A stretch of 64,000 nt of DNA from Clostridia bacterium (GTDB lineage: Bacteria; Bacillota; Clostridia; Christensenellales; Aristaeellaceae). Under the pieces are notes generated by a model, which worked only from the letters and a program-made list of their open reading frames with translations, was not told the DNA's origin and did not search any database. Both the position numbers and the translations under genes were made by a program. The DNA is taken from positions 62,001 to 126,000 of the forward strand of contig JAFRQX010000019.1 in the NCBI GenBank assembly GCA_017428385.1, in the 5' to 3' direction. How positions within the stretch are numbered: position 1 is the stretch's first letter; the number at the start of each line of letters is the position of its first letter. Below, in pieces: positions 18,998 through 23,173 of the stretch.

Positions 18998-20119
18998 ATG
19001 AATCAATTATATCATTGCTATGCCAGTGCTGCTTTCGGTATGGAGGGCCTTGTTTCAAAGGAATTGAAAAGCCTCGGGCTTCACGACGTTGAAGCCGGAA
19101 ACGGTTTCGTCCTTTTTTCAGCATCCGGAGACGAGCTGTTCCTTGCCAATATGGAGGTGCATTTCAGCGACAGGTTGTATATTATCCTGGCTTCGGGAGA
19201 ATGTAAAAGCTTTGAAAGCCTGTTCCAGCTTGTTTCTTCCGTCCGATGGTCTGATTTCTTCTCCAGGGACAGTTTTATTGACATATCCTGCAAATGTTCC
19301 AGAAGTCAGTTAATGAGTCAGCGGGACTGTCAGTCCATTACCAAAAAAGCTATTATTGAAAATGTTAAAAAAGCGACCGGACAAACATCTTTCCCTGAAT
19401 CTGGGTCTGCCCTGTCTGTCCAGGTCTCTGTAAGAAATAATCTGGTCAGGATCCTCCTGAATACCTCGGGTGATGCGCTCTCCCGCCGTGGATATCGAAC
19501 CTGGAACGGAGAAGCTCCGCTTCGTGAAACACTGGCAGCTGCTCTTGTAGAACTGAGCGGATGGAGGCCAGGTCAGCCCCTGTATGATCCCTGCTGCGGG
19601 ACAGGTACCATACTGATAGAATCTGCCCTTAAATCCGGAAGAATCGCTCCCGGGATCAACAGACAATTTGCCATGGAAAAGTACAAATGTTTCCGGGAAC
19701 TCAGCTTCTCAGCGCTCCGCGCTTCCCTGAAAGAAAGAGAAACCCGAGACAGCATTTCCGGTATCAGCGGTTCAGATATCGATCCTGAAGCGCTTGAACT
19801 TGCAAAAAGGCATATTATTCAGGCTGGTCTTGAAATCAACGCAATCGGTCTACATAACCTTCCCCTTCAGGAATTGAGTCTTAATACGGAAAACGGAGTT
19901 TTTATCTGTAATCCGCCATATGGAGAAAGACTCAGTGACCAGGCCGGATGCCGCAAACTCTATCACGATCTTTTCCTGCTTAAAAAGCGTCATCCCTCCT
20001 GGAAGCTCTGTGCAATTTCTTCAGACCCTGCGTTTGAAAGGAGCTTTGGCAAAAAAGCTGACAGGAAACGACGTTTATATAACGGCCGTCTTGAATGTGT
20101 ATATTATATCTATGACTGA
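18998..20119 (+). CDS. THUMP-domain class I SAM-dependent RNA methyltransferase (RlmL/YpsC type)
   Basis: A 373-residue methyltransferase with an N-terminal ferredoxin-like and THUMP region (residues 1-155, CYASAAFGMEGLVSKEL) and a C-terminal Rossmann domain. That domain shows LSRRGYRTWNGEAPLRETLA, LYDPCCGTGTILIESAL (SAM site near 195), SDIDPEALELAKRH and the N2-guanine catalytic motif FICNPPYGERL near 302. Family members (B. subtilis YpsC, N-terminal half of E. coli RlmL) methylate N2 of G2445 in 23S rRNA. The ATG has GGGAGGA upstream. Its last 10 nt overlap the convergent gene end at 20110. Confidence 0.9.
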   Translation: MNQLYHCYASAAFGMEGLVSKELKSLGLHDVEAGNGFVLFSASGDELFLANMEVHFSDRLYIILASGECKSFESLFQLVSSVRWSDFFSRDSFIDISCKCSRSQLMSQRDCQSITKKAIIENVKKATGQTSFPESGSALSVQVSVRNNLVRILLNTSGDALSRRGYRTWNGEAPLRETLAAALVELSGWRPGQPLYDPCCGTGTILIESALKSGRIAPGINRQFAMEKYKCFRELSFSALRASLKERETRDSISGISGSDIDPEALELAKRHIIQAGLEINAIGLHNLPLQELSLNTENGVFICNPPYGERLSDQAGCRKLYHDLFLLKKRHPSWKLCAISSDPAFERSFGKKADRKRRLYNGRLECVYYIYD

Positions 20120-22560
20120 CCATTCGTACGGATAAATGTTCTGCCAATGGATTCATCAGTTGAGTCGTTCCGGACATGTCTTATAAACAGGTCAATATCT
20201 TTTTGCGTATCTGCAATTACCGGACAATATGTATTCATATCCGCTTTCTGATTGCCATAAGGGTAAACAGGAACGATTGTAATTGCAGTGCCTTTGTCTT
20301 CTGACGAGAAATCAAACTGAACTCTTACCAGCATGGAATAGAATGCTTTAGGCTTTCTCGACGTGCTCCCGTCCATTATCGTTCCTGCATTATATATAAC
20401 CGGTACGCCCCTGATGTAGTCAATTCCCTGCGACTGTCCGTATTGATTAAAAATCACAAAATCAGCTCCGGCAAGCACGCATCTGTTTGCTATAGCTTCC
20501 TGAACAATAGAATGATTCTGTTCTTTATCTTCTTTCCTGCTGACAGTAAAAATGATTTTTTCGCATTGCATCTCTTTCAGCCGCCTGATTCGTTCGCTGA
20601 TAATGTTCACATCAGCAAGATATTCACTTTCACTGCATCCGGCAAACCCAATAAGACGCTCCTTCAACCTGATTGCGACAGGCTCAGATCGTTCCATAAC
20701 TTCTGTGCAGCCTGCCGCTTCTTTTCTTGTGTTCCTGAAAAGTTCCTCTCTTTGATATAAAAGATCATCCGTAAGCGTAAGCATCTCAATGGACGCGTTT
20801 GGGAATAATTCACTCATGCCTTTGGGCGCGTATTCAACATTTTTCATTTCCGTTGTGATTTCCGTATTTCCTTCAAGGATGCCACCCAGATCTGCACATG
20901 TCAGATCATCTTCTGACAGCAATGACTTCAGGGCCGAAAAAGGTTCCTGATATCCATCATTTGCTGTAAACGATACGAAACTTTCTTTTCTTGCATTGAT
21001 ATTTCTGTTTCCGCCCGGAACAAGTTTTCCGCAAAAAGTGATTGTAACCTTGTCATCCGTTAAGGTTCTCTGTTCACCTTCCGAATCAATCATCTTTAGC
21101 TGCAGTTCACTGCTGTTATCCTGTTTAAGCATGTTATTGGCTGCTTTTCTTTCCACCGGATCGTCCAGGATAATGACACGTGTATGATATGGAAGATGAG
21201 TAAACAGCCAGTATGCATTCAGGCCTCCCTCTCCCGGATCAGGTTGTATGCGTATACAGGCATGTGAAGCCTTAGCTCCCAGATAGCCGCGTCCCAGAGT
21301 AAAATCCTTTTTATTTTTACCCCAGTCATAAGGCGTCTGATGAAGAAGATTGCCCCCATCATACTGAATAACATAATCATATTTCTTGCCGTTTGTTGAG
21401 AAGTTCACCCTGTGATATCCTGTCAGGAAACAGCCTGCAGAAGTTTCCTGATACAGACTGTTCCTTTCCGCCCTCCCTGTGGATACATAGAGTGTATCGA
21501 TGATTTTCCCCTTGCGAAATACGCTCATGGTTTGTTTTTGTTTGTCCACAAGTATTCCGTATTCTTCAGCAGGATTTTCTGTTTTAAGTTTCTGAAGAGG
21601 AACCCAGCCCTCTATATATTCTCCTTCTTCATGATTCCATGCACCGATGAGCGCCCATGTGCCGTCGATCTCAAGCACCTTTACACCCTGCGTCTGTCCA
21701 TGAAGCGTGCCGAGCGATCTGCTTTTAGTATCCTGCTTTTCATAAACATCCTGATGTTTGAAGAAATCAATATCAATGACAACAGACGGTTTCATCATCA
21801 TAGTCCAGATTTCTTCATCGGACATATCACGGTCCGGCATGATTTCACCGGTTACCGTAATGGATGTGTTTTCAGGTCTTTTCTCGGAAACAGCCAGTGA
21901 ATACTCATAGATTTCTTCCGGTTTGGATGCCTCATACAGTCTCAGCGTATATTGTCCCGGAGCAGGTTTCTTTGCTTTGGAAATGTCGCTGAAATCTTTT
22001 CTGTTGATTCTGCCTCCTGTTGTAGAAAGCTTATAACTGTATGATGCTTCTTCCTGACCTTCACCTGTCATTGTCAGCATGACAGTACCGTCCTTAACCG
22101 TTCTGTATTCCACAAACCAGGTTTCCGGCGAATCCAGATATATGGTTTTCGATGAAGGTAATGCGTACTGCAGGCATTGTCCCGGATACTCCACAGGGGA
22201 CAGAAATGAAGTTGTATGTATCTGTCCTGAATCTGTTTGAAATTCTGCGGTAATGGTATAGGTTTTATCATAGAGTTTTTCTTTATTGTAAGCGCATCCG
22301 TCCCATTCTACCGTTGTTTCGCCGGCATTGACCCGTTTTTCCAGTTCCCTGTATACACAAACATCGTCATGGATCCGTATTTTGAGGTACCCGTCTTCCT
22401 CTGCATTTACGCGAAAAACATTGTTTTCATATGAATGGATATTCCCTACACGTTTTATTTCAAATACGTTTCCGGAGCTTGCATCATTCCATATGCCGCA
22501 TATTAGAATCACAGCACAGACAAATGCGGGATAAAGTTTTTTACTCAGTCTGAAATGCAT
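20110..22560 (-). CDS. secreted L,D-transpeptidase fused to a degenerate CapA-like domain
   Basis: An 816-residue exported protein. Residues 1-25 form a signal peptide or anchor (VCAVILICGIW); 26-240 look beta-rich and unassigned; about 270-325 resembles an SH3b domain (SLGTLHGQTQGVKVLEIDG); 333-470 is a YkuD L,D-transpeptidase with LLHQTP (His407) and ASHACIR (Cys435, SHAC in place of SHGC), so the catalytic His-Cys pair is kept and peptidoglycan crosslinking is plausible. About 500-770 follows the PGA_cap/CapA pattern (PFSALKSLL, ADFVIFNQYGQSQGIDYIRG, IYNAGTIMDG), but every metal ligand position appears changed. The ATG at 22560 with AAGGAG 9 nt upstream is chosen; a 127-codon longer frame runs over tRNA-Leu. 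It overlaps the convergent methyltransferase by 10 nt. Confidence 0.85.
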   Translation of the reverse strand: MHFRLSKKLYPAFVCAVILICGIWNDASSGNVFEIKRVGNIHSYENNVFRVNAEEDGYLKIRIHDDVCVYRELEKRVNAGETTVEWDGCAYNKEKLYDKTYTITAEFQTDSGQIHTTSFLSPVEYPGQCLQYALPSSKTIYLDSPETWFVEYRTVKDGTVMLTMTGEGQEEASYSYKLSTTGGRINRKDFSDISKAKKPAPGQYTLRLYEASKPEEIYEYSLAVSEKRPENTSITVTGEIMPDRDMSDEEIWTMMMKPSVVIDIDFFKHQDVYEKQDTKSRSLGTLHGQTQGVKVLEIDGTWALIGAWNHEEGEYIEGWVPLQKLKTENPAEEYGILVDKQKQTMSVFRKGKIIDTLYVSTGRAERNSLYQETSAGCFLTGYHRVNFSTNGKKYDYVIQYDGGNLLHQTPYDWGKNKKDFTLGRGYLGAKASHACIRIQPDPGEGGLNAYWLFTHLPYHTRVIILDDPVERKAANNMLKQDNSSELQLKMIDSEGEQRTLTDDKVTITFCGKLVPGGNRNINARKESFVSFTANDGYQEPFSALKSLLSEDDLTCADLGGILEGNTEITTEMKNVEYAPKGMSELFPNASIEMLTLTDDLLYQREELFRNTRKEAAGCTEVMERSEPVAIRLKERLIGFAGCSESEYLADVNIISERIRRLKEMQCEKIIFTVSRKEDKEQNHSIVQEAIANRCVLAGADFVIFNQYGQSQGIDYIRGVPVIYNAGTIMDGSTSRKPKAFYSMLVRVQFDFSSEDKGTAITIVPVYPYGNQKADMNTYCPVIADTQKDIDLFIRHVRNDSTDESIGRTFIRTNGQS

Positions 22561-22828: not shown

Positions 22829-22832
22829 TCAG

Positions 22833-23173
22833 TGGAGATGAGGGGAGTTGAACCCCTGTCCGAAAGCACTTCAGAAAGACTTTCTCCGAGCGCATTCCGT
22901 GGTTGGAATTCCTCAGAATGACGTCCGCGGAAAAACGTCATTCAGAGTAGCTTCATTATTGCGGATACCGCTGCAAAGCTTAAGCGGTACTCGTTCCCTG
23001 CATTAATGACGCCGGTTGTCTGATCTGCAGGCGGTCAGAGCCGACGCGCGGCATTAAGCCGCGAAAGCGTAATTGCTATTGTCAGTTATTGTTTTTCCCC
23101 GTTGATACGCAGTACAGGGGCTGCGGCTCGCTTATCCTTCCTCTGTTACCCCCGTCGAAACCGGATCATCCCC
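22833..23173 (-). ncRNA. ssrA: transfer-messenger RNA (tmRNA)
   Basis: A 341 nt tmRNA. The 5' end GGGGATGATCCGGTTTCGAC (reverse complement ending at 23173) and the 3' end, with a T arm GGGGTTCAACTCCCC and acceptor TCATCTCC plus discriminator A, pair as the tRNA-like half. The internal reading frame ends in GCT TTC GCG GCT TAA; my reading of the tag is (A)DNSNYAFAA, with the resume codon taken as GAC after AATAACT. No CCA is encoded. It starts 25 nt after the smpB stop on the same strand, so both parts of the ribosome-rescue system are likely co-expressed. Confidence 0.95.

Follow-up and report, generated by a model that had tools for sequence, protein, structure and literature searches.

We found that a gene in the window (the whole 64,000-nucleotide stretch of Clostridia DNA analysed here) encodes a probable secreted L,D-transpeptidase fused to a CapA-family domain. 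This CapA domain had a complete active site in the ancestor and appears to be retained now as a pseudoenzyme module, and in the relatives where the site is intact it might be an MslH-like enzyme. We give this reading as a whole a probability of about 0.7. What is new here is the history of the fusion, that is, its ancestry with an intact site followed by the loss in the lineage of the window.

Domain architecture of the fusion protein

The start codon (ATG) of the gene lies at 22560, preceded by an AAAGGAG ribosome-binding site, and the stop is at 20110. A longer open frame of 943 amino acids was rejected as the fusion gene, as its extra length is a mere open-frame extension across a divergent tRNA-Leu. 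The features of the gene are as follows.

20110 to 22560, minus strand: YkuD–CapA fusion gene, 816 aa (ORF, Pfam matches, ribosome-binding site; close orthologs align from residue 1)
22471 to 22560, minus strand: signal peptide region, residues 1–30, sequence MHFRLSKKLYPAFVCAVILICGIWNDASSG, judged by eye
21841 to 22470, minus strand: N-terminal region, residues 31–240, with putative FlgD-Ig-like beta domain(s) (weak FlgD_ig match at 68–109, below the Pfam cut-off)
21586 to 21753, minus strand: SH3-like segment, about residues 270–325 (weak SH3_3 match at 272–320, below the cut-off)
21169 to 21561, minus strand: YkuD L,D-transpeptidase domain, residues 334–464 (PF03734)
21340 to 21342, minus strand: His407, the conserved YkuD histidine
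21256 to 21258, minus strand: Cys435, the catalytic cysteine in SHAC
20191 to 21054, minus strand: CapA/PGA_cap pseudo-domain, residues 503–790 (Pfam match and hhalign)

The YkuD match scored 39.5 bits (E 1e-9), above the curated cut-off of 23.4. His407 and Cys435 are present and identical in 46 of 46 aligned proteins, and the Gly of the S/T-H-G-C motif is replaced by Ala (SHAC), as it is in all fused members of the genus of the window. By homology and by its catalytic residues, the protein is a YkuD-family member with this Gly-to-Ala exception.

The PGA_cap family (PF09587) was matched at residues 641–727 with 33.7 bits, above the gathering cut-off of 27, and the score was 38 bits when the CapA domain was scanned alone. 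In hhalign, the C-terminal domains of six members of the window clade were compared with those of 17 intact proteins; the whole CapA domain was still aligned (probability 100, E 8e-61, 284 aligned columns). Homology thus places the protein in the CapA family, without the status of an active enzyme. Eight YkuD and five PGA_cap matches were counted in the host genome (3.3 Mb, 99% complete); the fusion is the weakest of the latter, the other four scoring 116–167 bits.

The first-pass annotation had described an exported chain of 816 residues at this position and strand, with a YkuD domain keeping His407 and Cys435 in SHAC and a C-terminal region following the PGA_cap/CapA pattern. All of these points agreed with our results. 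No match was obtained by phmmer when the window protein was searched against the PDB. AlphaFold was run on the CapA domain, using one homolog, and on the full-length protein, using two; the models had a mean pLDDT of 36 and 40, too low for use. Elsewhere in the window, a T-box leader (Rfam RF00230) was found at 771–989 on the plus strand.

Loss of the CapA active site

The alignment to intact orthologs places the changes on six motifs.

21007 to 21033, minus strand: motif I, CGKLVPGGN for GGDxVLGGR (Asp lost)
20881 to 20892, minus strand: motif II, DLGG for NLEC (Glu lost)
20755 to 20772, minus strand: motif III, TDDLLY for ANNHTxD (Asn, His and Asp lost)
20527 to 20547, minus strand: motif IV, TVSRKED for QCHWGxE (His lost)
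20425 to 20451, minus strand: motif V, FNQYGQSQG for GHHPHVVQG (all His lost)
20377 to 20394, minus strand: motif VI, YNAGTI for YSLGNL

The CapA active-site residues (GD, NLE, NNHxxD, HWG, GHxPH) are all replaced in the window protein and present in the intact orthologs. The substitutions listed earlier from the sequence were correct, and the alignment indicated that they fall on active-site positions. In keeping with the claim that every expected metal ligand is changed, a conservation check for shifted ligands found no pseudo-domain His that is invariant in the clade of seven.

The losses in the window clade concentrate on the active site. Among 77 near-invariant positions of the intact CapA domains (11 active-site and 66 other), the pseudo clade retained the residue in 1.3% of cells at the active site and in 50% at the other positions. 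Ten of the 11 active-site positions, against 17 of the 66 others, were lost in all seven members (Fisher p 6.5e-5, with positions taken as independent and the test done after the pseudo clade had already been seen). The position of the motif I Asp varies inside the clade (K/N/S/C). Ten D/E/C positions of the pseudo-domain are invariant in the clade, and a few residues are fixed specifically there (P515, N522, S645, S732, P767), some of them near the old pocket motifs.

Distribution and orthology

A search of 45 genomes of the genus gave 31 readable orthologs; several of the genomes without an ortholog are incomplete. Fifteen orthologs are intact, seven fully degenerate, two half-deleted and two partly eroded, and five are without the CapA domain. 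The intact ones carry the canonical set GGD, NLE, NNHxxD, HWGxE, GHHPH and SLGN, with one change in L026, which has GHHPQ for GHHPH, a single His-to-Gln replacement at the position matching His295 of MslH. All seven fully degenerate domains belong to the clade of the window. Its sister group has two in-frame fusions (L022 and L067, from G033 and G278) that are without the N-terminal half of the CapA domain and keep a degenerate C-terminal half, and the two partly eroded domains lie outside both groups.

Four of the orthologs without the CapA domain (L029, L030, L031 and L085) have SHGC, and the first three were shown at the same locus. Whether Gly or Ala precedes the catalytic Cys goes with the absence or presence of the CapA domain, with the exception of L028, where the domain is absent and the motif is SHAC; this pattern may reflect one event.

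In 23 compared neighbourhoods, the gene is flanked at one end by a THUMP-domain methyltransferase, followed by yaaQ, holB and yaaT/ricT; at the other end, a tRNA-Leu or tRNA-Ser is present in nearly every case. Where the contig reaches, tmRNA, smpB and proA are often near the tRNA side. Because the gene order is conserved, the copies of the genus are the same gene in place and not scattered fusions. In the window, a tmRNA with the tag DNSNYAFAA lies upstream of the fusion gene (22832–23173, minus strand), and a tmRNA neighbours the gene in many relatives as well. A fusion in a more distant relative of another genus (L068) is also near the methyltransferase, holB and yaaT. The closest relatives with a name are RUG-labelled metagenome assemblies of uncultured Clostridiales, which we take to come from the rumen, and we suspect that the genus may be Aristaeella.

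Surveyed among relatives, the YkuD–CapA architecture is genus-wide at one locus, and the family as a whole has one-frame fusions under at least seven genus codes. The fusions read from other genera (L068–L072, L088–L097) are all intact at the active-site positions apart from the first His of GHHPH, which is Thr, Gly or Ala in some of them. One of these intact fusions, L069, has SQGC for SHGC, a Gln replacing the His before Gly-Cys. In samples of the order, class and phylum (about 390–400 genomes each), no frame matching both domains was found outside the family; few candidates were scored per genome and two of the searches had strict E-value limits, so a divergent fusion elsewhere could escape detection. 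Four frames of 609–708 amino acids (L075, L076, L077, L078) end in PGA_cap behind an N-terminal stretch of about 290–395 residues that is largely without a domain match, with DUF6273 in L077. A scan of viral contigs found no relatives of the fusion. In the open literature, we found no papers joining YkuD or D-transpeptidase with CapA or PGA_cap, an absence that is not proof.

History of the loss and selection on the pseudo-domain

When the gene tree is built from the N-terminal region and the YkuD domain and rooted with the other genera, the intact fusions are basal and the window clade is nested, with 100/100 support for the window clade plus the half-deleted pair. The CapA active site was complete in the ancestor of the fusions. 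With eleven neighbouring genes used for the tree instead, the eroded L018/L021/L028 group joins the intact L014, and a single clade of all losers is rejected (AU p 3.6e-56), giving a minimum of two changes. By the tree of the fusion gene itself, one such clade is not rejected (AU p 0.18); three independent losses were therefore not upheld, and we claim only the two that the neighbour-gene tree gives. On these trees, the loss within the genus occurred at least twice. The neighbour-gene tree also pairs the domain-less SHGC group with the window clade as its sister, at an indecisive support of 94. A single relaxation may therefore lie behind both the deletion in the one branch and the pseudo-domain in the other. 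SHAC looks derived within the genus, given that SHGC is the motif in most of the other genera read; the domain-less group again has SHGC.

The pseudo-domain is under purifying selection and is less constrained than the intact CapA domain. Its pairwise omega among the three closest species was 0.175, 0.103 and 0.150 (95% intervals within 0.065–0.252), which overlaps with the protein's own N-terminal region, and that of the YkuD part was 0.03–0.06. Deeper omegas were given no weight because synonymous sites are saturated beyond these species. Relative to the N-terminal region, the divergence of the pseudo-domain is 1.23 against 0.68 for the intact CapA domain, about two times faster, and its frame is open in all seven species of the clade.

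Comparison with known proteins

The only solved CapA-family chain that we found is MslH, the lasso-peptide epimerase, which acts on the peptide C-terminus with Ca(II) (PMC10406935). In MslH, a single Ca(II) is held by Glu44, Asn87, His259 and His261, the acid/base pairs are His88/Asp91 and His295/Asp11, and the activity of its mutants is lost or reduced (PMC10406935). In our alignment to the intact fusions, Glu44 corresponds to NLE, Asn87, His88 and Asp91 correspond to NNHxxD, and His295 is matched by the final His of GHHPH; the His of HWG falls at about model position 260–261, and the Asp11 counterpart is assigned from motif order only. Judged by sequence, the fusions are CapA-family relatives of MslH (PDB 8gq9, 8gqa, 8gqb, 8itg, 8ith), and the counterparts of E44, N87, H88, D91 and H295 in the intact ones are absent from the window protein. 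The intact fusions are distant homologs of MslH and stand in another context; two of them scored 27 and 39 bits with the NCBIfam MslH model NF038314, far below its equivalog cut-off of 700. This model was absent among the profile matches of the window protein, and in a PDB search the pseudo-domain profile reached MslH only at E 0.4–0.5.

With other YkuD L,D-transpeptidases (PF03734) the protein shares the catalytic domain, the conserved His and Cys and apparent export, but it has SHAC for SHGC, as in most of the genus, and a CapA domain fused on. With the CapA/PgsA/PGA_cap proteins (PF09587), its intact relatives share all family motifs and the window protein the match above cut-off, whereas the window clade is without the catalytic motif residues, is fused behind a transpeptidase and, in this genome, is not accompanied by CapC. 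PDB 4xxt, whose deposited title names a predicted Zn-dependent amidase/peptidase fused to a further domain, has a YkuD-like SHGCIR beside a second predicted wall enzyme; its match to the fusion is not significant (E 0.31) and the partner domain differs.

Discussion

The window protein is most likely an L,D-transpeptidase that still works and has kept its CapA domain as a non-catalytic module. The sequences show that a fusion with every CapA active-site residue in place came first; in the clade of the window, the CapA site was then replaced while purifying selection kept the domain, with the YkuD His and Cys unchanged. The YkuD domain would still make or exchange peptide cross-links, and the CapA domain would be a pseudoenzyme that serves as a structural, substrate-positioning or partner-binding module. 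A non-catalytic partner that might, for example, bind a wall polymer was also the reading of the first-pass annotation, and it is partly supported, in that the catalytic residues are gone and the domain is under selection beside an apparently intact transpeptidase; the intact ancestral fusions had not been seen at that point, and the loss within the genus at least twice has to be added to it.

Because the pseudo-domain diverges faster than the intact copies, it could be in slow decay, idle after the loss of its function and headed for deletion as in the sister lineages, where two relatives have lost half of the domain (L022, L067) and five the whole. We regard this as unlikely, as the omega of 0.10–0.18 in three species pairs, with upper bounds of up to 0.25 and overlapping the N-terminal region, the frame open in all seven species, the many invariant non-catalytic positions and the few clade-specific fixed residues all argue against an idle domain. 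These fixed residues near the old pocket motifs, together with the ten invariant D/E/C positions, could instead belong to a new active site with a different catalysis. It is very unlikely, since no His is invariant and the old motif positions vary within the clade (K/N/S/C in place of the motif I Asp), which is not what a new active site would show. Participation in poly-gamma-glutamate synthesis is suggested by the family name only and is most improbable: the genome has no match to CapC (PF14102), which was detected in the B. subtilis control, and the CapA domain is fused to a transpeptidase.

For the intact relatives, we suggest with less confidence that the CapA domain is an enzyme that depends on a metal and epimerises the C-terminal residue of a wall-associated peptide in the manner of MslH, so that editing and cross-linking of peptides would take place at one surface. 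As the only solved CapA-family protein that we found is the epimerase MslH, a peptide-editing role for the intact domain, next to a crosslinker, is plausible. It was also reported that B. subtilis without pgsA has a poly-gamma-glutamate D/L ratio of 5/95 against 75/25, that is, L-rich, and the authors propose other causes for this shift (PMC6029982). The MslH mapping and the pgsA phenotype are leads toward a function in peptide stereochemistry, not a demonstration of it. Most known enzymes of the calcineurin-like fold are phosphoesterases (PMC10406935), and the intact CapA domain could act in this way on wall polymers or lipid-linked precursors. This alternative, which competes only with the MslH-like part of our reading, is a serious one to which we give somewhat less than even odds, because the one solved member, with its single Ca(II), is an epimerase (PMC10406935) and the pgsA ratio fits an effect on stereochemistry, the authors' other causes notwithstanding (PMC6029982).

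A more speculative extension, which we consider doubtful, is that the intact fusion is a two-step wall editor. Its CapA-type epimerase, dependent on a metal, would act on the last residue of a wall peptide and alter its stereochemistry, and the L,D-transpeptidase joined to it would then use or refuse this peptide; in the clade of the window, the epimerase would have turned into a recognition domain without catalysis, by which the crosslinker is tuned.

Although many bacteria have proteins of the CapA family, we found only one with a solved structure, and the fused wall enzyme narrows the likely substrate toward the surroundings of peptidoglycan. One orthologous protein at one locus offers a series from the intact site through partial erosion, pseudo-domain and half-deletion to loss, and a comparison of species along this series can ask what the CapA domain does for the transpeptidase.
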